From NCBI GenBank assembly GCA_001509345.1, contig LGGM01000009.1, positions 1-35,173 on the forward strand: 35,173 nucleotides of DNA. Direction: 5' to 3'. Under the pieces are notes generated by a model. The model was not told where the DNA came from, searched no databases, and saw only the letters and a list, made by a program, of their open reading frames with translations. The DNA is from Clostridiales bacterium 38_11. GTDB lineage: Bacteria > Bacillota > Clostridia > Tissierellales > Dethiosulfatibacteraceae. The translations under genes and the position numbers were made by a program. Positions 2,167 through 26,513 of this stretch are shown here, in pieces. The number at the start of each line of letters is the position of its first letter. Within the stretch, counting starts at the first letter, position 1.

Positions 2167-3807
<1,641 letters not shown>

Positions 3808-3822
3808 TATATATCTCAATAA

Positions 3823-3853
3823 AAAGATGGCCCCTTAAGGGAGGCCATCTTTT
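3823..3853. terminator. Bidirectional Rho-independent terminator between groEL and glnB
   Basis: aaaaaGATGGCCccttaagggaGGCCATCtttttt. Confidence 0.9.
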
Positions 3854-4207
3854 TTAATTGATTGCTTCAGATCCGGATTCTCCCGTTCTGATACGATAGA
3901 TATTGTCAACACGATAAATGAATATTTTCCCGTCACCAATCTTACCGGTTCTACAAATAGATTGAGCCGTTTCAACCACTTTTTCCACAGGTGTTTTACA
4001 TACAACAACCTCAATTTTTATTTTTGGAAGCAGCAAAGCTGTGTAATCTGCACCTCTGTATTTTGTGGTATGGCCTTTTTGTTTACCGGAACCAAGCACA
4101 TTTGAAACAGTCATTCCCTCAACGCCAATATCCATTAAGGCGTCTTTTAACTCTTCAAGTTTGCTTGGTCTTGTGATTATTTCGATTTTTGTATAGATTT
4201 CAGACAT
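3854..4207 (-). CDS. glnB: P-II family nitrogen regulatory protein
   Basis: KIEIITRPSKLEELKDALMDIGVEGMTVSNVLGSGKQKGHTTKYRGADY...GKIGDGKIFIYRVDNIYRIRTGE, PII signature; 3' of amt. Confidence 0.93.
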   Translation of the reverse strand: MSEIYTKIEIITRPSKLEELKDALMDIGVEGMTVSNVLGSGKQKGHTTKYRGADYTALLLPKIKIEVVVCKTPVEKVVETAQSICRTGKIGDGKIFIYRVDNIYRIRTGESGSEAIN

Positions 4208-13410: not shown

Positions 13411-13425
13411 CAAGTGGGTGATGAT

Positions 13426-14664
13426 ATGATAAATAGCGGCATAGATATAGTTGAAGTGAAACGAATCGAGAGATTGATCAAGAACAAATCGTTCGTCAGA
13501 AAGATTTTTTCAGATAATGAGATTGCCTATCTCGAAGAAAGAAAATACAAAGCAACCACAGCTGCAGGTATCTTTTGCGCTAAAGAGGCTGTGAGCAAGT
13601 GTATTGGCACTGGTATCGCCGGGTTTTCATGGCATGACATAGAGATACATAGAAATGAATTGGGAAGGCCGTATGTTGTATTAGGAGGCAGAGCCTTAAA
13701 TCTGAGTAAAGAAAATGGAATCGTCAGCATTGATATTTCCATTACGCATATTGAAGATTACGCTCTATCAATCGCAATAGCAAAGCTAAATGAAAGCATA
13801 ATTCCGTCGGGTATCGGACTTTTTCTGTTACCGGCAAGGGAAGCTGATACGCATAAAGGTGATTATGGAAAGCTGGGTGTAGTTGGAGGCAAAGAAGGTA
13901 TGTCGGGATCTGTATATCTTGCAGGTCTTGCTGCCTTGAAATCCGGAACCGGCCTTGTATATCTGATTCCACCTATTTCAATTTATGAAATACTGAGCAT
14001 AAAACTCAATGAAGTCATCATCGAAAAATTGTCTGAAAGTCAGGAATATCTGGTGTATGATGATCTTGACAAAATCATGAAATATTCGGAAAAATATGAT
14101 GTCATGTGTTTAGGAACGGGGATAGGAACCAGTCTTCAGACGAAGAAAATGGTAATATCAATTCTAAGTCTTTTCGACAAGCCAATCGTTCTTGATGCTG
14201 ATGGTTTGAATTGTATCAACGGATCGGTCGAAATCCTGAAAAACAGGCAGGCAGTGACAATCATTACACCGCACACCATAGAAATGGCAAGACTCATGAA
14301 CTTAAGCCCAGAAGCAGTTGAGCGGGACAGAATCAATATCGCCATGGATTTTTCTAAACAATATGGGGTGATTACAGTCCTTAAAGGGCATAAAACCATT
14401 GTGTCAAATGGGGAGGAACTTTATGTTAATACAACAGGAAATCCAGGTATGGCAACGGCAGGAAGTGGGGATGTTCTGACAGGTATAATTGGAGCATTAG
14501 TGAGTCAGGGATACGACCCCTATTTAGCAGCGAAGCTTGGGGTCTTTATCCATGGATTGGCGGGAGATTTGGCTAAAGCAGAATATGGTGAATATGGAAT
14601 GATTGCATCAAATTTAATCGAATATCTGCCATATGCTATCAAAACATGCACTAAAAAAGAATAA
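13426..14664 (+). CDS. Fusion protein: holo-ACP synthase (AcpS) + ADP-dependent (S)-NAD(P)H-hydrate dehydratase (NnrD)
   Basis: N-terminus INSGIDIVEVKRIERLI...AAGIFCAKEAVSKCIGTG...ISITHIEDYALSIAIA (AcpS); C-terminus GDYGKLGVVGGKEGMSGSVYLAGLAALKSGTGLV...DADGLNCI...TPHTIEMARL...NPGMATAGSGDVLTGIIGAL (NnrD); one uninterrupted frame. ATG 13426 preferred because GTG 13414 lies upstream of the expected transcription start. Confidence 0.92.
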   Translation: MINSGIDIVEVKRIERLIKNKSFVRKIFSDNEIAYLEERKYKATTAAGIFCAKEAVSKCIGTGIAGFSWHDIEIHRNELGRPYVVLGGRALNLSKENGIVSIDISITHIEDYALSIAIAKLNESIIPSGIGLFLLPAREADTHKGDYGKLGVVGGKEGMSGSVYLAGLAALKSGTGLVYLIPPISIYEILSIKLNEVIIEKLSESQEYLVYDDLDKIMKYSEKYDVMCLGTGIGTSLQTKKMVISILSLFDKPIVLDADGLNCINGSVEILKNRQAVTIITPHTIEMARLMNLSPEAVERDRINIAMDFSKQYGVITVLKGHKTIVSNGEELYVNTTGNPGMATAGSGDVLTGIIGALVSQGYDPYLAAKLGVFIHGLAGDLAKAEYGEYGMIASNLIEYLPYAIKTCTKKE

Positions 14665-14685
14665 ATCAAAAGATCAATTCTTTTT
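14654..14685. terminator. Probable bidirectional terminator
   Basis: AAAAAGAATaaatcaaaagatcaATTCTTTTT between convergent genes. Confidence 0.6.
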
Positions 14686-15253
14686 ACTCGACTTTATACG
14701 AACCGCGAATCATAAATATTGAATTGTTGGTAATTGTTACACCTCGACCATCTGATCTCGGGATAATCAATAGATGGTTTGCAGGAATATCTTTGCCGTG
14801 TTGAATATCATAGCCCCCAGTAACATCTGATAGGCCACCAAGATAGCTGGCGATGGCAGTAGTGGATCCATTGGAGTATCGAAGGATTATTTCTGTTCCC
14901 GCGTCCGCTATGATTCTAGTTCCTACCAATACCTTGCTCTGACCTTCACTTACGATAGTTTTTCCTGCATTGTTTAATAAAGTTGAATCGGCATATAATT
15001 CCAATACCTCAAGCACATTTCCTGAAACAGAAGATAACTCACTGAGCTGGGTTGAGATTGTTGATATAGAATCATCCTGTTGTTGATTTTTTAGATTGAG
15101 AGCTTCCTTCAACGCATCGATTACTTGATTCAGATAGCTCAGGGAAATCAAAGGATCGTTGTTGTTGATTGTTGCTTCAGTAGTTAATAGTCTAGGGCCT
15201 ATCAATGAAATAGCCAATATTAGAAGCAGTATTAAGATCTTTTTATTGTTCAC
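14684..15253 (-). CDS. Uncharacterised secreted or membrane-anchored protein (signal/TM, Q/S-rich helical segment, beta-rich C-terminus)
   Basis: MNNKKILILLLILAISLIGPRLL N-terminal hydrophobic segment; C-terminus NHLLIIPRSDGRGVTITNNSIFMIRGSYKVE. Confidence 0.75.
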   Translation of the reverse strand: MNNKKILILLLILAISLIGPRLLTTEATINNNDPLISLSYLNQVIDALKEALNLKNQQQDDSISTISTQLSELSSVSGNVLEVLELYADSTLLNNAGKTIVSEGQSKVLVGTRIIADAGTEIILRYSNGSTTAIASYLGGLSDVTGGYDIQHGKDIPANHLLIIPRSDGRGVTITNNSIFMIRGSYKVE

Positions 15254-15409
15254 TGGATCACCTCTCCTTTTTGTATTCTTCTATATTTTAAAGTAGGAAA
15301 GAGCATTAAGCAATATTTTTATATATATTTATAGAAACAAAGTTGTTCTTTTGGTATAATGACATGATATCAACTAAGACAACGCACAGCAATTTTGAGA
15401 GGGAATCAG

Positions 15410-17287
15410 ATGAAAAAATACTTCAATAGACATGCTATAATATCGCAAGCATTTGTTTTGGGAATAATCCTTTCTTTTTTTGTAAAAGTGTTCTATTTTC
15501 AGTATACAATAGGTTTATCCCAGGTACCCTTTCAAGATAATATGCTTATCCATAGGCTTCTTCTTTTCAGTACAGTGACGGTAGTAATAACGATTGCTTT
15601 GATCTTTCAGAAGAAGGCCATTTATTTTTTTATTGTATTCGACATTATAATCTCAGCACTGTTGCTATTAGATACATTGTATGGCAGGTATTATGGAATA
15701 CCGTTAACCATTCCAATCGTCTATCAGTTAAGTTTCGTCAACGACATACAAGATAGTGCCAATACCCTTTTTAAATGGAAAGATATGGTTTATTTTGTTG
15801 ACTTACCGATTATATTTGGGTATGTCTTTTATTTCAGAAAATATTTGTTCGAAAAGAATACCCGTCGTAAAAATGCTATCTATCTGGTGATTCTTCTGAT
15901 GTCCATTACTTTGTTTCACACTCAAGCCAAAGACATAGACAGAACGTTGCATAATTATGAAAGAAAAAATATTGCTAAGGATCTTGGAGTTTTTTATTTC
16001 CATGGTTATGATATAATTGATTTCACCAGAAACAAGTTTTTAACCAGCCTTTCGATGAATGAGTCAGAAAAGAAAATCATTATGGAGTATCTCAATGATA
16101 ACCCGAGACAGACAGAAACCTTCAATCTCTATTCCGAAAAGAAAAATCTTCTAGTCTTACAGGTTGAAGCATTACAGGAATTTGTGATTGATCTGGAGAT
16201 TAACGGTCAAGAAGTGACGCCTTTTCTCAACGGCTTAAAATCAGAGAATCTATACTTTAGTCAGATATATCATCAAGTTGCGGGCGGAAATACAGCAGAT
16301 ACCGAATTTCTGTTGAATGTGGGTTTACATCCCACACCGACTGGATCTGTCAACTACTTGTATCCAACTAATCAGTGGCTATCTCTAAGTGATTTGTTAA
16401 ACGAAAGAGGTTATACAAGCCTAGCTTTTCATGGTTATGAGGCCAGCTTCTGGAACCGACAAGCCGTATACAATAATCTTGGTTTCTATCAATTTGTCAG
16501 TAAAGAGGATTTTGACATTGATGAAACACTTGGTTGGTCCATCAGTGATGAGTCTTTTTTTAGACAGTCCATTGACAAGTCTCTTAGCCATCAGCCATTT
16601 TACAGTCTGCTGATTACTTTGTCCAGCCATCATCCCTTTGATGCATTCAGCGAGTTTCCTATGAATGTGTCACCATTTGATAACACACAGGTTGGAAATT
16701 ATCTGAAAGGAATCAACTATGTTGATCAGGCTATTGAAGACTTATTTGAGCGTCTGGCTGATGAAAACATTTTAGATAACACAATCGTAGTAATTTTTGG
16801 GGATCATTCAGGTCTCTATCTGGACCAGAAAGCTGTTCTTCAGGACTTGCTTACCTTTGGAGACCACCCTGTGGAATGGGCGAAAATACAAAAAGTGCCT
16901 CTAATAATAGCTTTACCGGATAAAAAGCTTCAAGGGAATATCAATAAGGTTGGGGGACAGATTGATATTCTACCCACCATTGTGGACATCCTGGGCTTGG
17001 ATTATCCACTCATACTTGGCAATTCATTATTGAGAGAAAAAGGCAACTACGCAGTTAAGCGAGATGGGTCTATTTATTTTGATAACTATTATTTTGATAA
17101 TGCAAGAGGTATTCTATTTGACATTGAAACGTTGGAAGAAGTAATTATTACCACTGAACTGGCAAACCGGATTGGAAAATACAAAACTGATCTGATGGTA
17201 TCAGATATCATTATCAGAAAAAATCTGTTCAATGATGATGAGTTTTTAAATATTATTCATTCACAGAAAGGATTAAACGAGGAGTAA
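15410..17287 (+). CDS. LTA synthase family (sulfatase-fold) membrane protein
   Basis: Several N-terminal TM segments, then EALQEF...GGNTADTEFLLNVGLHPTPTGSVNYLYPTNQWLSLSDLLNERGYTSLAFHGYEASFWNR...SSHHPF...FGDHSGLY; ATG 15410 with RBS gagagg. Confidence 0.9.
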   Translation: MKKYFNRHAIISQAFVLGIILSFFVKVFYFQYTIGLSQVPFQDNMLIHRLLLFSTVTVVITIALIFQKKAIYFFIVFDIIISALLLLDTLYGRYYGIPLTIPIVYQLSFVNDIQDSANTLFKWKDMVYFVDLPIIFGYVFYFRKYLFEKNTRRKNAIYLVILLMSITLFHTQAKDIDRTLHNYERKNIAKDLGVFYFHGYDIIDFTRNKFLTSLSMNESEKKIIMEYLNDNPRQTETFNLYSEKKNLLVLQVEALQEFVIDLEINGQEVTPFLNGLKSENLYFSQIYHQVAGGNTADTEFLLNVGLHPTPTGSVNYLYPTNQWLSLSDLLNERGYTSLAFHGYEASFWNRQAVYNNLGFYQFVSKEDFDIDETLGWSISDESFFRQSIDKSLSHQPFYSLLITLSSHHPFDAFSEFPMNVSPFDNTQVGNYLKGINYVDQAIEDLFERLADENILDNTIVVIFGDHSGLYLDQKAVLQDLLTFGDHPVEWAKIQKVPLIIALPDKKLQGNINKVGGQIDILPTIVDILGLDYPLILGNSLLREKGNYAVKRDGSIYFDNYYFDNARGILFDIETLEEVIITTELANRIGKYKTDLMVSDIIIRKNLFNDDEFLNIIHSQKGLNEE

Positions 17288-17291
17288 CAGG

Positions 17292-18749
17292 ATGGAATCA
17301 GTCTTCTACAGTAAGGGGAAGCGGGTATTGAAACATATACTCAACCTGTATAGACAAAGTCTGTTGTATAAATCATTTGGGATGATGTTTTCTACCATCG
17401 GCAGCCTTATGATTAACAGTGTAATTGTAGGTTGGTTATCTTCCAATGATCAATTAAAAAACAGTCTTGAAAACAGAAAATTATTTAGCTTCAAATCAGA
17501 AGCATCTAAATCTTTTATTAGAAACTTTCTGGCGGGGAGCAGATTTCTGACGATTTTTTCTGATAAAAGTGTTTTATTTCCTTTGATATTTCTGAATGTT
17601 TTTCTTTACCCATTCACACCTACAGCTATCGGGATTATATTTTCGACCGGATTATGTGCTCTAATGCTGATCAATGCTACTATTCATCAAAACTTTCGCA
17701 AAAAATCCAGGTTGATTGTTTTTACAACTCTGATTTTTTTAGCTTATTTGTTATTAAGTCTTTTTTTTAATGATATCAGAAGTGATGGTGTACTTATTTT
17801 CATTACCTATACCAGCATTTTGCTTTTTACCGCTTTTATTACGGTCACCATAAATGATGATAAGAATGCAATGATTCTGATACATATGATTGCTTCAACC
17901 GTTCTGGCAGTTTCGCTGTATGGATTGTATCAAGTTTATGCTGGTGCTCCTGTGGACCCCTCATGGCTGGACGAGTCATTAACAGGAAATGTCATTAGAA
18001 TATACAGCGTTTTTGGCAATCCCAATGTATTTGGGGAGTTCCTCACGTTGACTTTACCGATTGTGTTTGCAGGGCTTAACTTGAATAGAAATAAGATAAT
18101 TAGGATTGTTTATGGGATCACCTTTCTGTTGGGGATGTTTAATGTGTTATTGACGTTTTCAAGAGGCTCTATGCTTGCTCTCTTAATTGTTATGGTGCTG
18201 ATCGTTGTTTTCAAGGACAGAAAATACCTTCCGCTACTGGTTTTGATGCTTTTGGTAAGCCCATTGATATTACCATCATCCATAATTGAAAGGATATTGA
18301 CAATATTCCAAGGAGGGGATACATCTACTTCCTATCGCGTATCGATCTATATGGCATCTTATGATATGTTAAAAGAGCATGTGTTTACTGGAGTTGGATT
18401 GGGTAATTTCAAGGTGCTGTACAATGCATATGCCTACACATCAGCAAAATCATTTCATGCTCATAATACCATACTGATGATATGGATAGAATTGGGGTTT
18501 ATGGGGTTGCTGGCATGGATCTATATGATGTTTGTCTGGATTAGAGAGATATTCAGCTCTCAAAAGATAGATAGCACCTGGAGTTATTATGCATTTGCAG
18601 CTTTTGCAGGTGTTATGGGCTGCACATTGCAGGGGATGGTCGATCATATCTGGCACAATTATGATATTTTGTTTTTTTATTTTTTAATGGTAGCCCTTGG
18701 TTTTATCGTATCTAATATAGCAAAAGGACAAACGAATGATGAAAAATAG
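17292..18749 (+). CDS. O-antigen ligase / polymerase family membrane protein (Wzy/WaaL-like)
   Basis: Polytopic membrane protein with RIYSVFGNPNVFGEFLTLTLPI...LLTFSRGSMLALLIV...GVGLGNFKVLY...FHAHNTILMIWIELGFMGLLAW. Confidence 0.9.
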   Translation: MESVFYSKGKRVLKHILNLYRQSLLYKSFGMMFSTIGSLMINSVIVGWLSSNDQLKNSLENRKLFSFKSEASKSFIRNFLAGSRFLTIFSDKSVLFPLIFLNVFLYPFTPTAIGIIFSTGLCALMLINATIHQNFRKKSRLIVFTTLIFLAYLLLSLFFNDIRSDGVLIFITYTSILLFTAFITVTINDDKNAMILIHMIASTVLAVSLYGLYQVYAGAPVDPSWLDESLTGNVIRIYSVFGNPNVFGEFLTLTLPIVFAGLNLNRNKIIRIVYGITFLLGMFNVLLTFSRGSMLALLIVMVLIVVFKDRKYLPLLVLMLLVSPLILPSSIIERILTIFQGGDTSTSYRVSIYMASYDMLKEHVFTGVGLGNFKVLYNAYAYTSAKSFHAHNTILMIWIELGFMGLLAWIYMMFVWIREIFSSQKIDSTWSYYAFAAFAGVMGCTLQGMVDHIWHNYDILFFYFLMVALGFIVSNIAKGQTNDEK

Positions 18750-19800
18750 GATAAAGGTTATAGAAATTATATCAGATACGAATTTTGGCGGGGCAGGTCA
18801 ATATCTTAAGAGTATAGTGGAAGAAATTGACAGAGAGATCTTTGAACCTATTATTATTATGCCTTTTGACAGTGTTTTAAGAGATATGATGGGAAACTCC
18901 AAAGTAGAGTACTGCCGAGCTATAAATGAAAAATCATTTTCTCTAAAAGGAATGATCAATCTTTACAAGATTATGAAGAGAATCAAACCATGTGTTGTCC
19001 ATACACATGGCTCTCTTTCCGGTAGACTGGCAGCACAGATTTTAGGGGTAAAGAACATTGTATACACCAAGCATACTTTAAGCGACAACAACATTGGATG
19101 GAAAAGACAATTAAAAATAATTTTAAATAAGATGTTGCGTGCAAACGTAATCGCCATTTCAAAATCAGTGAAGCTTAATCTTATTGAAGAGGGAATTAAG
19201 GAAACTAATATCAGAATGATATATAATGGCATCAGAATTATCGAAACTTTTGACACTGAAACACGTCTAATACCAATAATTACACTTGTAGGCAGACTTG
19301 AACCAATCAAAGGACATAGGCATATGATTGAGATCACAAGACGACTAACCGAATGCCATAGGGAGAATTTTGAGATAAAATTTGTAGGATCGGGCTCACT
19401 GGAACCAACACTCAAAAAGCTTGTATCGGATTATGGTTTGCCGATCACATTTAGCGGTCATGTCGATAGTATTGGGCAGATTTATGAAACCTCTGATATA
19501 ATTGTAAACACCTCTGACTCAGAAGCACTTTCATATGCTACGCTGGAGGCGATGATGTATAAAAAACCAGTCGTAGCCTTTGATATACCGGGAATCAATG
19601 AAGTGATTGAAAATGGAAAGACCGGATTTCTTGTCGATTATAAGGACTATGATTTATTTACTGAATATTTGGTAAGACTTCTGAAAGACAGCACGCTCAG
19701 AAGAAATATGGGAGAGTCCGGTAGACAAAGAGTAATTGATAAGTTCTCAATTGAAGAAATGATAAACGGAATCGAAACCTTATATATGGAGGAATTATGA
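18736..19800 (+). CDS. Glycosyltransferase family 4
   Basis: IISDTNFGGAGQYLKSIVEEI...VVHTHGSLSGRLAAQILGVKNIVYTKHTLS...VGRLEPIKGH...TSDSEALSYATLEAMMYKKPVVAFDIPGINEVIENGKTGFLV. Confidence 0.93.
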   Translation: MMKNRIKVIEIISDTNFGGAGQYLKSIVEEIDREIFEPIIIMPFDSVLRDMMGNSKVEYCRAINEKSFSLKGMINLYKIMKRIKPCVVHTHGSLSGRLAAQILGVKNIVYTKHTLSDNNIGWKRQLKIILNKMLRANVIAISKSVKLNLIEEGIKETNIRMIYNGIRIIETFDTETRLIPIITLVGRLEPIKGHRHMIEITRRLTECHRENFEIKFVGSGSLEPTLKKLVSDYGLPITFSGHVDSIGQIYETSDIIVNTSDSEALSYATLEAMMYKKPVVAFDIPGINEVIENGKTGFLVDYKDYDLFTEYLVRLLKDSTLRRNMGESGRQRVIDKFSIEEMINGIETLYMEEL

Positions 19801-20291
19801 AACTGATCAACAAAAAAGGAATGGTATTTGAAAAAATAAGCATTGTTGATGTTATTATTATTCTGGTGATAATAGCCATCGGTTATTATGCTATCACATT
19901 TCTGACCACAAAAGATGTTAATAAAATCAGCAAACAAACCATCCAGTACACCTTTGAGACAGAGGATGTCAATGAAAACTTTGCAAAGCAATTGCAGCTG
20001 GAAGGAAATCTATATAATTCCAGCAAAAATTATTTTGTTGGCAAACTGATTGATTATAAAGTGTTGCCCTATGAAATAATCGTTCCGGATCTGCAAAATG
20101 GTGTTTTTATTAAACAGGTTGTAGAAGACAGATTTGTTGTCAGAATGACAATAGAAGCGAATACAGATCAGGATGACTACAATATACGCATCAACCAAGA
20201 GAATATCAAAGTTGGTGCTATGTTTCCAATTAAAGGCAAAGGCTTTGCGTCTTACGGATATATTGTTGAAATCAAGGAGGTTGTCAAATGA
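19797..20291 (+). CDS. DUF4330-like single-pass membrane protein (copy 1)
   Basis: N-terminal TM (SIVDVIIILVIIAIGYYAITFL) plus short extracytoplasmic beta-rich domain; glycan operon context. Confidence 0.75.
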   Translation: MKLINKKGMVFEKISIVDVIIILVIIAIGYYAITFLTTKDVNKISKQTIQYTFETEDVNENFAKQLQLEGNLYNSSKNYFVGKLIDYKVLPYEIIVPDLQNGVFIKQVVEDRFVVRMTIEANTDQDDYNIRINQENIKVGAMFPIKGKGFASYGYIVEIKEVVK

Positions 20292-20761
20292 GAAGAATGA
20301 ACATTGCTGATTTCATTATCATCATCTTTATCATTGGCGGAATCCTGGTTTTGGCTTCTAAGCTTGGTACCTTTGGTTTGTCTTTAGGTCAAGGCGAGGA
20401 GATAAAAATGAGAAAGGCTGTCATTGTTTTAGAGGTTGAAGATGTGAGAGAAGCGACTGTCAACGCCCTTAAAATCGGACATATTGTACTATCAGAAGAA
20501 ACCAACAGTCCCATAGGACCCATAATAGAGATGACAGTAACTCCATACATGGATGAAATTGAGACGGTGGATGGCAAGATAGTTTTTTCCGAAGTGCCTG
20601 GTAAGTATACTATTATAGTTTCATTGGAAGCATCGCTTCTTGAACGGGAAACCGGTTATTTTGCTGAGGGTATAACCGAAATGAAAGTTAATTCTATTTT
20701 CAAGTTCTACACAAAATATGTGAGTACTTCTGGGAGAATTGAGGAGATTGATTTACAATGA
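20288..20761 (+). CDS. DUF4330-like single-pass membrane protein (copy 2)
   Basis: NIADFIIIIFIIGGILVLASKLGTFG N-terminal TM; same size and topology as the preceding gene; ATGA overlap with it. Confidence 0.7.
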   Translation: MRRMNIADFIIIIFIIGGILVLASKLGTFGLSLGQGEEIKMRKAVIVLEVEDVREATVNALKIGHIVLSEETNSPIGPIIEMTVTPYMDEIETVDGKIVFSEVPGKYTIIVSLEASLLERETGYFAEGITEMKVNSIFKFYTKYVSTSGRIEEIDLQ

Positions 20762-21792
20762 AAAAAGTTTTGCAATGTTTAATGAGCTTGGAAATCGGAG
20801 GCGCGGAGACACACGTCATAGAGCTTTCAAAATATCTTGCTAAGAAGGGCTATAAGGTAGTGGTGGCTTCTAATGGAGGCACCTATGAAAAAGAACTTGT
20901 TGAAGCAGGGGTCAAAGTAATCCGAATACCAATGCACAGCAAGAAGCCTCTATTCATCGTGCAATCTCTTATTTTACTCAACAGACTAATAAGGGATTTC
21001 AAACCTGATATTGTCCATGCACACGCCCGGATACCAGGTCTTTATGTGAGCATTTTCGAAAAGTTATACCATTTTCGCATGATTACCACAGTTCATGGCA
21101 AGTTTAAAATCAATTGGTTATTAAAGCATATAACCCAATGGGGTAAAGAGATTTTTGTTGTCAGTGAGGACTTGAAGGAGTATCTGATAGATAATTATCC
21201 TGTTGAAAAGGCCAACATTTTCAGCACAGTCAATGGTATAGACACAGTCAGGTTTTACCCTTCGGATGAATCAGACATTGAATATGACATTATTCATGTA
21301 AGCCGTTTGGATCAGGGTACCAGTAATACAGCTGATATGCTGATTACTTATGCTCAAGAAAGCAGTGTAAATGTATTGGTAGTTGGCGCAGGATCTGAGC
21401 TAAAGAAATTGAGAGAAAAATCAACTGAAATTTATAATATAAATTTTCAAGGATCAACCAATAGAGTTGATGTAGAACTCAGAAAAGCGAAGATTTTTGT
21501 TGGTATTAGCAGATCTGCATTGGAAGCGATGAGTATGAATATACCGGTTGTATTATCCGGAGATTATGGTTATATGGGAATAATGCAGCCATCTGTTTTG
21601 GATGAAGCGATTAAAAACAATTTTACTGCAAGGGTTTCAACTATGCTTGATTATGAAAAGCTGAGACAGGATTTAGATGCTGTCTTAAAAATGGACCCAG
21701 AATTGTTTTCATGGGAAAGGGATTTTATTCAAAATCATTATTCAATCTCAAAAATGTCGGAGGATTATATCAAGGTGTACGAGAATGAATAA
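20758..21792 (+). CDS. Glycosyltransferase family 4
   Basis: LMSLEIGGAETHVIELSKYLAKKGYKVVVASNGGTYEKELVEAGVKVIRIPMHSKKPL...DIVHAHARIPGLY. Confidence 0.93.
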   Translation: MKKVLQCLMSLEIGGAETHVIELSKYLAKKGYKVVVASNGGTYEKELVEAGVKVIRIPMHSKKPLFIVQSLILLNRLIRDFKPDIVHAHARIPGLYVSIFEKLYHFRMITTVHGKFKINWLLKHITQWGKEIFVVSEDLKEYLIDNYPVEKANIFSTVNGIDTVRFYPSDESDIEYDIIHVSRLDQGTSNTADMLITYAQESSVNVLVVGAGSELKKLREKSTEIYNINFQGSTNRVDVELRKAKIFVGISRSALEAMSMNIPVVLSGDYGYMGIMQPSVLDEAIKNNFTARVSTMLDYEKLRQDLDAVLKMDPELFSWERDFIQNHYSISKMSEDYIKVYENE

Positions 21793-22825
21793 AAGAGCGT
21801 TTATAATCGGATATTACGGTTCAAACAATTTGGGAGACGAACTTCTCTTAAGCGAGACAATAAAAATATTACAGCCTTATATAAAAATCGAAAATATCAA
21901 AGTATTGTCGTATAATGTTGAATTGACCTGTAAAATCCATGGCATATCAGGTGTAAGCCGAAACAAATACATCAATATTCTGAAAACCATAATAGATTCA
22001 GACTTTATCATCGGTGGTGGAGGAAGCATGCTTCAAAATGTTACCTCAAACCGAAGCCTGATTTATTATCTTGTTTTGATCAATTTGGCTTTTCTTTTTA
22101 AGAAAAAGGTCATTTTATTGGGTAATGGCATTGGACCGATCAATGGGGCTATACAGAAAAGGTTGGTTAAAAAAACCCTTAAAAAAATCAGCTATTTACA
22201 TTTGAGAGATATTGCTTCATATGAATGGATTAATGGATCAGACAGCGACAAGATAGATCTAGGTGTCGATCTTGCTTTACATGAGACAGAAATCAATAAA
22301 AGACCAAAAACAGATTGCGTCATCGTTAATTTGAGAAATTGGGAGAATATTGATGCTTTAAAAACAACAATAAAAGACCTGGTAAATTACATCGAAGATA
22401 GTGGATATGAAGTAATTCTGCTTTCTATGCAAAAGGGCAACGACGATCATGTATTACAGTCATTGGGGAAAGTAGATACATTTGATGATTTGGAAGCATT
22501 GAAACAGAAGATTTCCTCAGCTAGGTATATTATTGGGATGAGATTGCATGTGTTGATTCTAAGTGCTGCCTTTTCTATTCCTTTCATAGGACTAGCCTAT
22601 GATCCAAAGGTAAGTTCATTTTGCAAAGAAATGAACCAACCATATTTCGACTGTTTTGGGGATTTGAACAGTGAAGTGGTAATAGAGACATTTAAAATGA
22701 TGGAAAAAAGTGAAAATCAATCAATTGAAACCATCAAAAATCAATTTGACAAATTCAAAATCCGTAATTTGGAAATGTCAGAAAAGATCGGAAAGATCAT
22801 AAGAGGTCAGGATGAAAAGAATTGA
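21785..22825 (+). CDS. csaB: Polysaccharide pyruvyl transferase CsaB
   Basis: AFIIGYYGSNNLGDELLLSETIKIL...IIGGGGSMLQNVTSNRSLIYYLVLINLAFLFKKKVILLGNGIGPI...ARYIIGMRLHVLILSAAFSIPFIGLAYDPKV. Confidence 0.92.
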   Translation: MNKRAFIIGYYGSNNLGDELLLSETIKILQPYIKIENIKVLSYNVELTCKIHGISGVSRNKYINILKTIIDSDFIIGGGGSMLQNVTSNRSLIYYLVLINLAFLFKKKVILLGNGIGPINGAIQKRLVKKTLKKISYLHLRDIASYEWINGSDSDKIDLGVDLALHETEINKRPKTDCVIVNLRNWENIDALKTTIKDLVNYIEDSGYEVILLSMQKGNDDHVLQSLGKVDTFDDLEALKQKISSARYIIGMRLHVLILSAAFSIPFIGLAYDPKVSSFCKEMNQPYFDCFGDLNSEVVIETFKMMEKSENQSIETIKNQFDKFKIRNLEMSEKIGKIIRGQDEKN

Positions 22826-23585
22826 AATAATGGGTGTTGCAATATGTGATTTGGATAATTCTGAGACTGTCAGCGAGGTCAAAAAGCTATTACGACAACA
22901 ACAAAAAATCCCCGATGTTGTTTATACACCAAATACTGAAATAGTAATGATGTGTCAAAAGGATGATTCATTAAAATCCATCATAAATGGAGGATCTTTA
23001 ATACTTCCTGATGGTGTTGGGTTGGTAATTGGTTCTAAGATCAGAAAGAAACCATTAAGAGAAAGGGTAACAGGGTTTGATATTTCTGTTGCATTGCTTC
23101 AAATAGCTAAGGAAAACAGGTATAAGGTATTTTTGTTGGGAGGTGCTCCCGGTGTTGCAAACCTGGCAGCTGAAAACATAAGAATAAAGTACGGCGATAT
23201 CATTTGCGGTTATCAACATGGCTATTTTAAGGGTTATCACTCTGGGCATTCCAATAGTGCTGAAGAGCAGTCAATCATCGAAAGAATTAATCGACTCAAA
23301 CCCGACATTCTGTTTGTAGGCTTTGGCTCACCAAGACAAGAAAAATGGATTAACCATTTCCTCAATCAGTTGAATGTCAGATTGATTATAGGAAATGGGG
23401 GTACGATAGATGTCCTGTCCGGACAAGTGAAGAGGGCTCCTTTGTTTTTTCAGAGACTGGGATTGGAGTGGTTATACAGACTGATGATGGATCCTAAAAG
23501 AATTAGAAGACAGATATTGCTGCCGTTGTTTCTGGTTGAAATATTGCTGGGACCTGATGATATGGTAAAAACTTTAGAGAATTGA
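22812..23585 (+). CDS. WecG/TagA/CpsF family glycosyltransferase (GT26)
   Basis: TPNTEIVMMCQKDDSLKSIINGGSLILPDGVGLVIGSKIRKKPLRERVTGFDI...FLLGGAPGVANLAAENI...LFVGFGSPRQEKWI...GNGGTIDVLSGQVKRAP. Confidence 0.95.
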   Translation: MKRIEIMGVAICDLDNSETVSEVKKLLRQQQKIPDVVYTPNTEIVMMCQKDDSLKSIINGGSLILPDGVGLVIGSKIRKKPLRERVTGFDISVALLQIAKENRYKVFLLGGAPGVANLAAENIRIKYGDIICGYQHGYFKGYHSGHSNSAEEQSIIERINRLKPDILFVGFGSPRQEKWINHFLNQLNVRLIIGNGGTIDVLSGQVKRAPLFFQRLGLEWLYRLMMDPKRIRRQILLPLFLVEILLGPDDMVKTLEN

Positions 23586-23645: not shown

Positions 23646-24332
23646 ATGTTTGAATTTCATAATGTCACTAAGATTTACAAGAATAAATTCACAGCTGTGA
23701 AAGATATAAATCTAAAAATTGAAAAAGGTAGTTTTTCATTTGTGGTGGGAAAAAGCGGAGCAGGGAAGACCACTTTGATCAAATTACTCATTAAAGAAGT
23801 GAATCCAACAGAGGGCACTATTTTTTTCAATGGAGAAGATATCACTTATTTAAGCAGCAGGAGAATCCCGTTACATAGAAGAAAGGTCGGGGTAGTATTT
23901 CAGGACTTTAGATTATTGAACAAAAAGACAGTTTATGAAAACATAGCTTTTGCAATGGAGATGGTAGGACAATCACCCAAAAGCATCCGACGGGAAGTTC
24001 CGAATGTCCTAAGCATGGTCGGGTTAAGCGACAAGGCAACTAACTTTCCCAACGAGCTAGCTGGGGGAGAACAGCAAAGGATTGCTATTGCAAGGGCAGT
24101 TGTGAATAGGCCTGATTTGATCATAGCAGATGAACCGACTGGGAATCTGGATCCCGAGACTTCGAATGAAATTATGAAGATATTCTCTGAAATAAACAGA
24201 CGAGGAACAACACTTCTAATGGTAACTCATGATAGGACCATAGTCGACATGATGAAAAAAAGGGTCATTGAATTAAAAAATGGAAGAATCATTAGGGATA
24301 CCGAGGAAGGAGATTACTATGAAGGCTTCTAG
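23646..24332 (+). CDS. ftsE: Cell division ATP-binding protein FtsE
   Basis: FSFVVGKSGAGKTTLIKLL (Walker A)...VFQDFRLLNKKTVYENIAFAM...LAGGEQQRIAIARAVVNRPDLIIADEPTGNLDP. Confidence 0.95.
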   Translation: MFEFHNVTKIYKNKFTAVKDINLKIEKGSFSFVVGKSGAGKTTLIKLLIKEVNPTEGTIFFNGEDITYLSSRRIPLHRRKVGVVFQDFRLLNKKTVYENIAFAMEMVGQSPKSIRREVPNVLSMVGLSDKATNFPNELAGGEQQRIAIARAVVNRPDLIIADEPTGNLDPETSNEIMKIFSEINRRGTTLLMVTHDRTIVDMMKKRVIELKNGRIIRDTEEGDYYEGF

Positions 24333-25218
24333 GATTTTTAATCATACCATCAAGCAAGGCTTTCAGGGAATCTATAGGAATCGCACCATGAGTCTGGCTT
24401 CGGTAGGTTCTGTTACAGCAGTCCTGGTCATTTTGGGACTGATTATAATGATTATTTTGAATGTCAGTGCGATTTCCGTTTCCACAAAAGAAAAATTTGA
24501 TGAGATTTACGTATATTTAGACGATAGCATCACCAATCAGAGGATTAGGGAGATTGGCGAGGAAATAGGTTCATATGAGGGTACATTGGCAGTCGTATTC
24601 CAGTCCAAGGACTATGCCTTGGAAAAAATGAAAGAAGAGTGGGGAGAAGATGGAAGACTCCTAGAGGGGCTGGTAAACAATCCTTTGCCAAACACCTATG
24701 TAGTTCAGTTGAGGGATGTTTCATACGCGTCTGCGCTTATAAAACATATTGAGCAAAAAGATGGCATCGAGGAAGTGAAGTATTATAAGGACATTGTTGA
24801 AAAGCTGATTAGTACTGCCGAATTCATACAAGTATTTGGTGTCATTGTCATTATCATATTGCTTCTTGTGAGTATTTTTATAATACAGAACACAATCAAG
24901 ATCACAGTAGCTTCAAGAAAAGTCGAAATAGAACTGATGCAGTATATTGGTGCTTCAAATGGATTTGTAAGGGGACCCTTTATATTCGAAGGAGTCGTAC
25001 TTGGGTGCATGGGGGCTTTTTTGGCGATAATTGTTGTATTGAATGGTTATGACTACCTGGTATCGTATTCAAACGAGAAACTTTTTTCCATGTTATCAGT
25101 CTATTTGATACCTGCAAACATGATAAGTCTGGACATTTTGATAATATTTGTTACAATAGGAGTAGGTATTGGTATTTTGGGAAGTATTGTTTCTCTTAGA
25201 AAATTCTTGAGTGTGTAG
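24319..25218 (+). CDS. ftsX: Cell division protein FtsX (start refined to ATG 24319)
   Basis: GFQGIYRNRTMSLASVGSVTAVLVILGLI...EFIQVFGVIVIIILLLVSIFIIQNTIKITVASRKVEIELMQYIGASNGFVRGPFIFEGVVLG; RBS gaaggag; overlaps ftsE end by 14 nt. Confidence 0.95.
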   Translation: MKASRIFNHTIKQGFQGIYRNRTMSLASVGSVTAVLVILGLIIMIILNVSAISVSTKEKFDEIYVYLDDSITNQRIREIGEEIGSYEGTLAVVFQSKDYALEKMKEEWGEDGRLLEGLVNNPLPNTYVVQLRDVSYASALIKHIEQKDGIEEVKYYKDIVEKLISTAEFIQVFGVIVIIILLLVSIFIIQNTIKITVASRKVEIELMQYIGASNGFVRGPFIFEGVVLGCMGAFLAIIVVLNGYDYLVSYSNEKLFSMLSVYLIPANMISLDILIIFVTIGVGIGILGSIVSLRKFLSV

Positions 25219-25226
25219 GAGGTTTT

Positions 25227-26348
25227 ATGAAAAGAATCATCCGTTGCATATATGTCATCACTATAATTGCATTGCTTGTTCTTTCAGCCGGAGCATCAAG
25301 AATCAATGATCTCAAAAAAGAACTTGAAAAAACAGAAAGTGAAATAGGAAATATAACTCAAAAACTAAAAACGACTCAAAGTGAAAAAAACAGCGTTGAA
25401 TATGAAATAAACCAGCTTGATAGTGAAATACTCAAGTTGGCAGCTGAAGAATTAAAGCTTGAGCTTGAGTTGGAGAATATTGAACAAAATATTCAGAATA
25501 AGGAATTCGAAATAGAAGAGATTAATTCTCAGATTGATCTATCAAATGATTTGCTTGAACAGAGATTGAGATCCATGTATAAAAATGGAGCGGTAGGTTA
25601 TCTTGAGGTTCTTTTCAATTCTAATGATATTGGTGATTTTTTGACAAGGATTGACATGATACAAAGGATTGTCAACAATGATGTGAGTATATTGGAAGAA
25701 CTGGAACAGCAGCATACTACCCTCGAAATAACCCAAATGGAGTTGGAAAACGAAAAGAACAATTATTATTCATCGATGCAGGCGGTCAAGAGCAAAAAGA
25801 ATGATATAGAGGTAGCAAGTAGAGCCAAGGAAAAATATATGAATTCGTTGGTTGGAAGTATAGAAGAGTTGAAAGAACAGGAAAAGAGACTCCTTGAGGC
25901 ATCTAATGAGATAGAGAAAAAAATAAAATTGGCACAGCTTGAGGTAAAGTATGCCGGTGGTGAAATGACGTGGCCATCTCCCGGGTATTATACAATCACA
26001 TCATCTTATGGTATGAGGCCGCATCCTTTATATGGCTATTGGAGCATGCATACAGGTGTAGATTTGAGGGTCCCTATGAAGCAGAAAATTGTAGCAATGA
26101 ATAGCGGTCAGGTATCTTATGCAGGCTGGTATGGCGCTTATGGAAACATAGTCATAATAGATCATGGTGGTGGGATATCGACATTGTACGCACACAACAC
26201 TTCTGTGGTTGTCAGTGAAGGACAAAAGGTCACCAAAGGACAATTAGTGGCATATTCCGGAACTACAGGTATGTCTACCGGACCTCATTTACATTTTGAG
26301 GTTAGGATAAATGGTAAACACACAAACCCAATGACTTATTTCGAGTAA
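25227..26348 (+). CDS. M23-family peptidase with N-terminal coiled coil (EnvC/PcsB-like, likely FtsEX-dependent hydrolase or activator)
   Basis: Signal peptide, long E/K/Q-rich coiled coil, M23 domain SSYGMRPHPLYGYWSMHTGVDLRVPMKQKIVAMNSGQVSYAGWYGAYGNIVIIDHGGGISTLYAHN...TGMSTGPHLHFEVRINGKHTNPMTYF. Confidence 0.93.
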   Translation: MKRIIRCIYVITIIALLVLSAGASRINDLKKELEKTESEIGNITQKLKTTQSEKNSVEYEINQLDSEILKLAAEELKLELELENIEQNIQNKEFEIEEINSQIDLSNDLLEQRLRSMYKNGAVGYLEVLFNSNDIGDFLTRIDMIQRIVNNDVSILEELEQQHTTLEITQMELENEKNNYYSSMQAVKSKKNDIEVASRAKEKYMNSLVGSIEELKEQEKRLLEASNEIEKKIKLAQLEVKYAGGEMTWPSPGYYTITSSYGMRPHPLYGYWSMHTGVDLRVPMKQKIVAMNSGQVSYAGWYGAYGNIVIIDHGGGISTLYAHNTSVVVSEGQKVTKGQLVAYSGTTGMSTGPHLHFEVRINGKHTNPMTYFE

Positions 26349-26401: not shown

Positions 26402-26513
26402 GTAAAAGTAGAAGTATCCGCTTCTCACCTTACAGCGCATTCGTGTAGCTGGTACGGTTAGTAAAGTCTATTTGGGTTTTTCATAAAGATAGCGGATTGC
26501 GCTGTCTTTTTTA
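26402..26513 (+). ncRNA. L20-leader-like transcription attenuator upstream of infC-rpmI-rplT
   Basis: Intrinsic terminator GATAGCG-gattg-CGCTGTC-TTTTTT (26488-26512) plus upstream complementary segments 26416-26422 and 26433-26439. Confidence 0.75.

Follow-up and report, generated by a model that had tools for sequence, protein, structure and literature searches.

An operon coupling two DUF4330 proteins to a Wzy_C membrane enzyme in a candidate pathway for pyruvylated secondary cell wall polymer

What glycan does a compact run of eight genes build in Clostridiales bacterium 38_11, and why does it encode two proteins of DUF4330 (PF14221), a Pfam family to which, to our knowledge, no function has been assigned? 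The run lies in a stretch of 35,173 nucleotides (contig LGGM01000009.1, positions 1 to 35,173; hereafter the window) of a 1.88 Mb metagenome-assembled genome that is 97% complete. Besides the DUF4330 pair it encodes an LtaS-like protein, a Wzy_C polymerase/ligase-type membrane protein, two GT4 glycosyltransferases, CsaB and a WecG/TagA-family enzyme (Table 1). We propose that this operon probably makes and polymerises a pyruvylated secondary cell wall polymer (SCWP) that is bound by SLH-domain proteins, with the DUF4330 pair serving as dedicated accessory subunits of Wzy_C. That the operon is an SCWP pathway is very likely. We consider polymerisation of the repeat units the probable role of Wzy_C, and slightly favour a direct action of DUF4330 with it.

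The nearest partner of DUF4330 is the Wzy_C gene together with its GT4, and CsaB is linked more loosely. We mapped 40 loci from genomes of the class and 80 named loci, using profiles built from the window proteins. The first 40 were partly picked around CsaB; the named set was not chosen for CsaB, but it was found with a nine-row DUF4330 alignment carrying the KGRLFG motif and so over-represents motif-bearing copies. Of 95 Firmicute loci, 90 have a Wzy_C gene on the strand of DUF4330 and no more than 1.5 kb from it, 88 have a GT4 within 1.5 kb, and 65 have CsaB within 10 kb. The named set gives Wzy_C at this distance and strand in 54 of 58 loci, and where at least 5 kb was available on both sides the counts are 32/33 for Wzy_C and 22/33 for CsaB. 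The initial annotation had suggested surveying DUF4330 neighbourhoods for CsaB, TagA and an O-antigen ligase; the ligase-type gene proved a near-constant neighbour, CsaB a less regular one. Given that the Wzy_C/GT4 linkage is tighter than the CsaB linkage, DUF4330 is more likely a partner of Wzy_C than an independent exporter or ligase, and the recurrence of the Wzy_C-linked form across the Firmicute loci means that the gene set is not a chance assembly. In the openly searchable literature (subscription papers lay outside the search) DUF4330 is not named, and we found no report of its tight link to Wzy_C.

Two gene orders are common in the relatives: GT4-DUF4330-(companion)-Wzy_C-CsaB-TagA, and that of the window, Wzy_C-GT4-DUF4330-DUF4330-GT4-CsaB-TagA. 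Of 94 loci, 38 carry a MurJ-type gene no more than 6 kb away, usually directly upstream of Wzy_C. GT4-CsaB fusions of about 740 amino acids make up 23 of the 70 CsaB genes in related loci. In lineages with a single DUF4330, DUF5693 (PF18949) genes were seen between GT4 and CsaB (L092:13498-15429, L105:13554-15440).

The link to SLH-domain proteins emerges at the level of whole genomes. Searches of one set of 293 class genomes for DUF4330, CsaB (E<1e-45) and SLH found them in 129, 149 and 171, respectively. CsaB is present in 126 of the 129 genomes with DUF4330 and in 23 of the 164 without it, so that the co-occurrence on which the initial annotation had staked its proposal is indeed found; two of the three DUF4330 genomes that lack CsaB have borderline DUF4330 matches. 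SLH accompanies DUF4330 in 128/129 genomes and CsaB in 149/149. The Fisher p values are extremely small, but they ignore shared ancestry and are descriptive only. A more independent hint is the joint absence of DUF4330, CsaB and SLH from three genomes of the order to which the window belongs (G102, G211 and G227).

Both DUF4330 copies of the window, the only ones in the genome, match the full domain with scores above the PF14221 gathering cut-off of 27.6 bits. In an AlphaFold model (84 sequences; pLDDT 91.9, pTM 0.74), copy 1 is predicted to have a transmembrane helix at residues 16-37 and an extracytoplasmic all-beta domain at 45-161; a conserved short cytoplasmic motif, DxKGRLFGKINIIDL, precedes the helix. 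Fold searches of the PDB and of BFVD (viral) gave no match at E<=1e-3. The initial annotation had offered the DUF4330 pair as a possible export or ligation step. We rejected either role for DUF4330 alone, since it has one predicted transmembrane helix and no fold similarity to transporters or ligases. An MCE/MlaD-like fold, suspected from sequence, was likewise rejected for want of sequence or fold support: MlaD is not among the Pfam matches listed for 84 DUF4330 members (the first 25 of 61 families), and no MCE domain is among the top 50 PDB fold matches. A few members have weak PRC-barrel or RimM matches (best E 0.01), which we did not use as evidence. A search for DUF4330 on plasmids gave no match.

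In a tree of 148 DUF4330 copies, whose deep branches are unresolved and several of whose rows are long, tandem copies group by position: the two labels change 6 and 7 times along the tree, where shuffled labels gave about 33 changes. Copy 2 of the window groups with other second-position copies (98/90 with L058). This clustering by position suggests that the tandem copies are old paralogs held side by side in a fixed order, which would fit two different subunits. The cyanobacterial copies form one well-supported clade (L133, L135, L136, L138, L140, L142, L145, L149, L152-L154, L157, L159), and a gene of about 283 amino acids lies on the opposite strand beside most of them. The family was also detected in Synechococcus elongatus, the control genome, and its carriers include a Brevibacillus, Tepidibacter thalassicus and Acetivibrio straminisolvens.

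The AlphaFold model of Wzy_C (pLDDT 86.7) has a single PDB match at E<=1e-3 in Foldseek, the O-antigen ligase WaaL (7tpg_B, E 2.5e-7, TM-score 0.57); FtsW is next. Residues R236, T288, R291, R334, R349 and N245 are invariant in 92 relatives, and H389/H391 of an H-x-H-N motif are about 90% conserved in them. Short Wzy_C proteins in other loci are often preceded by a membrane protein of about 100-195 amino acids with repeated 'xNSxxxR'-like helices (for instance L061:9989-10537, L107:10502-11041 and L123:10270-10824), and a profile of this companion also matches the N-terminus of many long Wzy_C proteins (about 500-670 amino acids). Examples encoded as separate open reading frames (ORFs) had no convincing Pfam match when scanned. 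The idea that the companion is a divergent DUF4330 was rejected for all loci but L066, and the companion is a family of its own. At the N-terminus of the window Wzy_C the companion profile finds no match, and a degenerate remnant there is a visual guess only.

Pfam and NCBIfam back each family name in the run, and CsaB is the sole operon protein to reach an NCBIfam equivalog cut-off (TIGR03609, 242.0 against 213.1 bits). The WecG/TagA protein scores well above the superfamily cut-off of 69 bits for TIGR00696 and below that of the narrower TarA equivalog (197.8 against 350 bits), so the proposed activity, transfer of N-acetylmannosamine (ManNAc) from UDP-ManNAc to an N-acetylglucosamine (GlcNAc)-diphosphate lipid, is inferred as to its sugar. 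The LtaS-like protein has catalytic-type E, T and D-H motifs in its translation (VEALQ, NTADTEF, GDHSG), but reaches 321.4 bits where the LtaS equivalog NF053595 requires 970, and it is therefore not assignable as LtaS. A screen of 40 related loci did not find the gene, and for this reason we regard it as a lineage-specific addition, whose product may decorate the polymer with phosphoglycerol or synthesise lipoteichoic acid.

The remaining functions have candidates elsewhere in the genome. The observation in the initial annotation that the window holds no initiating transferase or flippase is correct, but the organism probably has no such gap. A tagO/WecA-like transferase gene (L169 3926-4957) adjoins mnaA for UDP-GlcNAc 2-epimerase (2775-3923; wecB equivalog, 514 bits) on contig C114 and is distinct from MraY, a separate gene on contig C9, and so we rejected the absence of an initiating enzyme as a real gap. 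On the flippase side, the search that had been proposed for tagO and wzx turned up a SpoVB/MurJ-type gene on contig C20 and a MATE transporter on C92; relatives carry MurJ in the cluster itself. The genome has one LCP-family transferase gene, and ligation can be assigned, on family membership, to this single protein. The proposed link between a pyruvylated wall polymer and SLH proteins, for which an SLH search of the genome had been named in advance as a test, is supported by the CsaB match and by 23 SLH domain matches above cut-off, one of them only together with its neighbours.

In this scenario, TagO and MnaA would supply GlcNAc-diphosphate-lipid and UDP-ManNAc, TagA would add ManNAc to the lipid-linked GlcNAc, and CsaB would pyruvylate the ManNAc so added. 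From the gene set we infer that the two GT4 enzymes would then finish the repeat unit, a MurJ/SpoVB-type flippase would carry it outward, the WaaL-fold Wzy_C would polymerise repeats at the outer face of the membrane, and the LCP protein would join the chain to peptidoglycan. Given the constant linkage and the topology of DUF4330, we suspect that the pair assists Wzy_C, for example in chain-growth control or polymer handover, as Wzz does with Wzy; this likeness is one of analogy, not homology. The sugars, the order of steps and the flippase are those that the gene families would predict.

The early steps have a precedent in Paenibacillus alvei, in which it is established that TagA makes lipid-diphosphate-GlcNAc-ManNAc and CsaB pyruvylates it (PMC6030368, PMC6801904). 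The P. alvei pathway (TagO-MnaA-TagA-CsaB) shares with the present genome the TagA and CsaB families, the adjacent tagO-mnaA genes and the SLH proteins, whereas the present operon adds Wzy_C, two GT4s and DUF4330 to TagA and CsaB. In Bacillus anthracis the SCWP model, as described in these sources, likewise combines a Wzy/WaaL-clan protein with CsaB, TagO, TagA and a MATE/Wzx-type flippase (PMC6030368, PMC6801904). It differs in that WpaA and WpaB belong to PF13425 rather than PF04932, the genes occupy four separate clusters, and the description of the model in these sources does not mention DUF4330. The PSII locus of Clostridioides difficile, with MviN, the polymerase CD2777 and LcpA/LcpB, is similar as a clostridial Wzx/Wzy-type wall polymer system with a MurJ/MviN-type flippase and LCP ligation (PMC5065235). 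PSII, however, anchors CWB2 surface proteins (PMC4973711), and the available portion of the account of the locus does not describe CsaB, SLH or DUF4330 (PMC5065235). For the proposed subunit role, the closest parallel is the synthesis of enterobacterial common antigen, where Wzy and the co-polymerase Wzz form a complex (WzyE-WzzE); there too a membrane polymerase has a dedicated membrane partner with an outward-facing domain (PMC10030265). No Wzz match was found among the operon proteins by Pfam scan, a genome-wide Wzz search not having been made.

Several observations weigh against the proposal as a whole. DUF4330 is unlike the Wzz co-polymerases in length and topology: it has one transmembrane helix and a small beta domain, and two paralogs are often present. 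CsaB and SLH occur without DUF4330 in about 23 genomes, so DUF4330 is not universally needed, and the cyanobacterial DUF4330 genes stand isolated, away from Wzy_C and CsaB. There is no flippase within this operon; the only good candidate, the SpoVB-type gene, lies beside yabN/mazG and may serve another role. The 4,6-pyruvylated ManNAc in the wall polymer of this organism is a prediction from gene families. Teichoic acids are wall polymers synthesised without Wzy. Finally, the sequence and modelled fold of Wzy_C fit a polymerase and a ligase alike and do not separate them, and a second Wzy_C protein of 607 amino acids, with a large insert between its domain halves, is encoded on contig C53 (L178:1737-3560, minus strand).

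The last two points bear on the possibility, which we judge rather unlikely, that the pathway is an SCWP pathway in which Wzy_C is the ligase and DUF4330 assists ligation; Wzy_C would then transfer the finished chain to a murein linkage unit, the role suggested for WpaA/WpaB. In favour are the fold common to Wzy and WaaL, with the ligase as the best structural match, the published B. anthracis model, which gives WpaA/WpaB both polymerisation and ligation without proof (PMC6030368), and the second Wzy_C protein, which could be the polymerase. Yet the LCP transferase of the genome can do the ligation, and no glycan genes accompany the second Wzy_C gene, which is isolated on its 5.8 kb contig. 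It is unlikely that Wzy_C, GT4 and DUF4330 make a different glycan, such as an S-layer protein glycan (with Wzy_C as an oligosaccharyltransferase) or an exopolysaccharide, while CsaB and TagA make the SCWP separately as merely co-regulated envelope genes. The tighter tie of DUF4330 to Wzy_C and GT4 would fit such a division, as would the absence of CsaB within 10 kb from about one third of the fully covered named loci, its distance of more than 50 kb in some genomes, and the C. difficile PSII locus, which shows that Wzx/Wzy wall polymers exist for another anchoring system (PMC5065235). Against it, DUF4330, CsaB and SLH co-occur almost perfectly in the class and are jointly missing from the three genomes of the window's order, and single operons repeatedly interleave Wzy_C, DUF4330, the GT4-CsaB fusion and TagA. 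We think it very improbable that DUF4330 simply travels with the operon as a protein of general envelope function or lipid handling (of the MCE/MlaD kind, for example), with no specific glycan role. One transmembrane helix and a beta domain are common to many envelope proteins, and the cyanobacterial copies have unrelated surroundings, but neither the Pfam matches listed nor the top fold matches include MCE/MlaD, and the linkage to Wzy_C is too constant for a hitchhiker.

The gene calls bear out the initial description of eight genes on one strand with overlapping junctions from Wzy_C to TagA, on the evidence of ORFs, Pfam and NCBIfam.

Table 1. Genes of the proposed SCWP operon and the genes that follow it (window coordinates)
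Feature	Coordinates	Strand	Evidence and remarks
LtaS-like phosphoglycerol transferase	15410-17287	+	PF00884 E 3.9e-45 (sulfatase/LTA synthase fold); first in run
Wzy_C polymerase/ligase-type membrane protein	17292-18749	+	PF04932 E 2.9e-23; WaaL fold
GT4 glycosyltransferase a	18736-19800	+	PF00534/PF13692/PF13439; usual DUF4330 neighbour
DUF4330 copy 1 (position T1)	19797-20291	+	PF14221 72.1 bits
DUF4330 copy 2 (position T2), divergent paralog	20288-20761	+	PF14221 39.1 bits
GT4 glycosyltransferase b	20758-21792	+	PF13439 E 4.9e-28; often CsaB-fused in relatives
CsaB ketal-pyruvyltransferase	21785-22825	+	PF04230 E 1.8e-35; TIGR03609 242.0 bits
WecG/TagA-family glycosyltransferase	22812-23585	+	PF03808 E 3.7e-59; TIGR00696 163.9 bits
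FtsE-like ABC ATPase	23646-24332	+	named by eye from translation
FtsX-like membrane protein	24280-25218	+	named by eye
PcsB-like M23 peptidoglycan hydrolase	25227-26348	+	PF01551 E 3.7e-34; PF24568 CC_PcsB E 5.3e-18

We place the start of the LtaS-like gene at the ATG at 15410, the mechanical ORF opening at a TTG at 15395. A gap of 4 bp separates it from Wzy_C, and the junctions from there to TagA overlap by 14, 4, 4, 4, 8 and 14 bases in order, the 4-base overlaps being ATGA. The FtsE-like gene begins 60 bp after TagA, and the top plus-strand terminator-like hairpin in a scan of 14.6-26.6 kb lies 3' of PcsB at 26485-26509, although such sites occur at chance level overall. Based on the short gap and the position of this hairpin, the operon may continue through ftsEX-pcsB. 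Nine other loci also have FtsX close to DUF4330 (L043, L048, L058, L060, L106, L109, L110, L121 and L139), which, with the ftsE-ftsX-pcsB genes 3' of the glycan genes here, suggests that the FtsEX-PcsB hydrolase system is recurrently tied to SCWP synthesis. Upstream of the run, the window encodes AcpS (PF01648) and an NAD(P)HX dehydratase (PF01256) in one protein of 416 amino acids (13414-14664), and a protein of 189 amino acids that has a hydrophobic N-terminal stretch and matches nothing in Pfam or NCBIfam (14684-15253, minus strand).

Anaerobes widely use SLH domains to display proteins on their surface, and in cyanobacteria SLH proteins also tether the outer membrane. The operon described here would be a new form of SCWP biosynthesis, and the link of DUF4330 to the chain-building enzyme points to a missing part of the pathway. 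Polymerisation and attachment of SCWPs have been called an open question (PMC6030368, PMC6801904). That TagA, CsaB, a WaaL-fold enzyme, MurJ and DUF4330 are so regularly linked in operons of many Clostridia provides genomic evidence in favour of a flippase/polymerase route and singles out specific proteins, DUF4330 and the companion. We tentatively raise the possibility, to which we give somewhat less than even weight, that DUF4330 pairs and the companion membrane protein form an undescribed class of dedicated Wzy partners, either non-Wzz co-polymerases or chain-handover factors, which would set the polymerisation of the SLH-binding polymer in Clostridia and would occur as standalone proteins in cyanobacteria.

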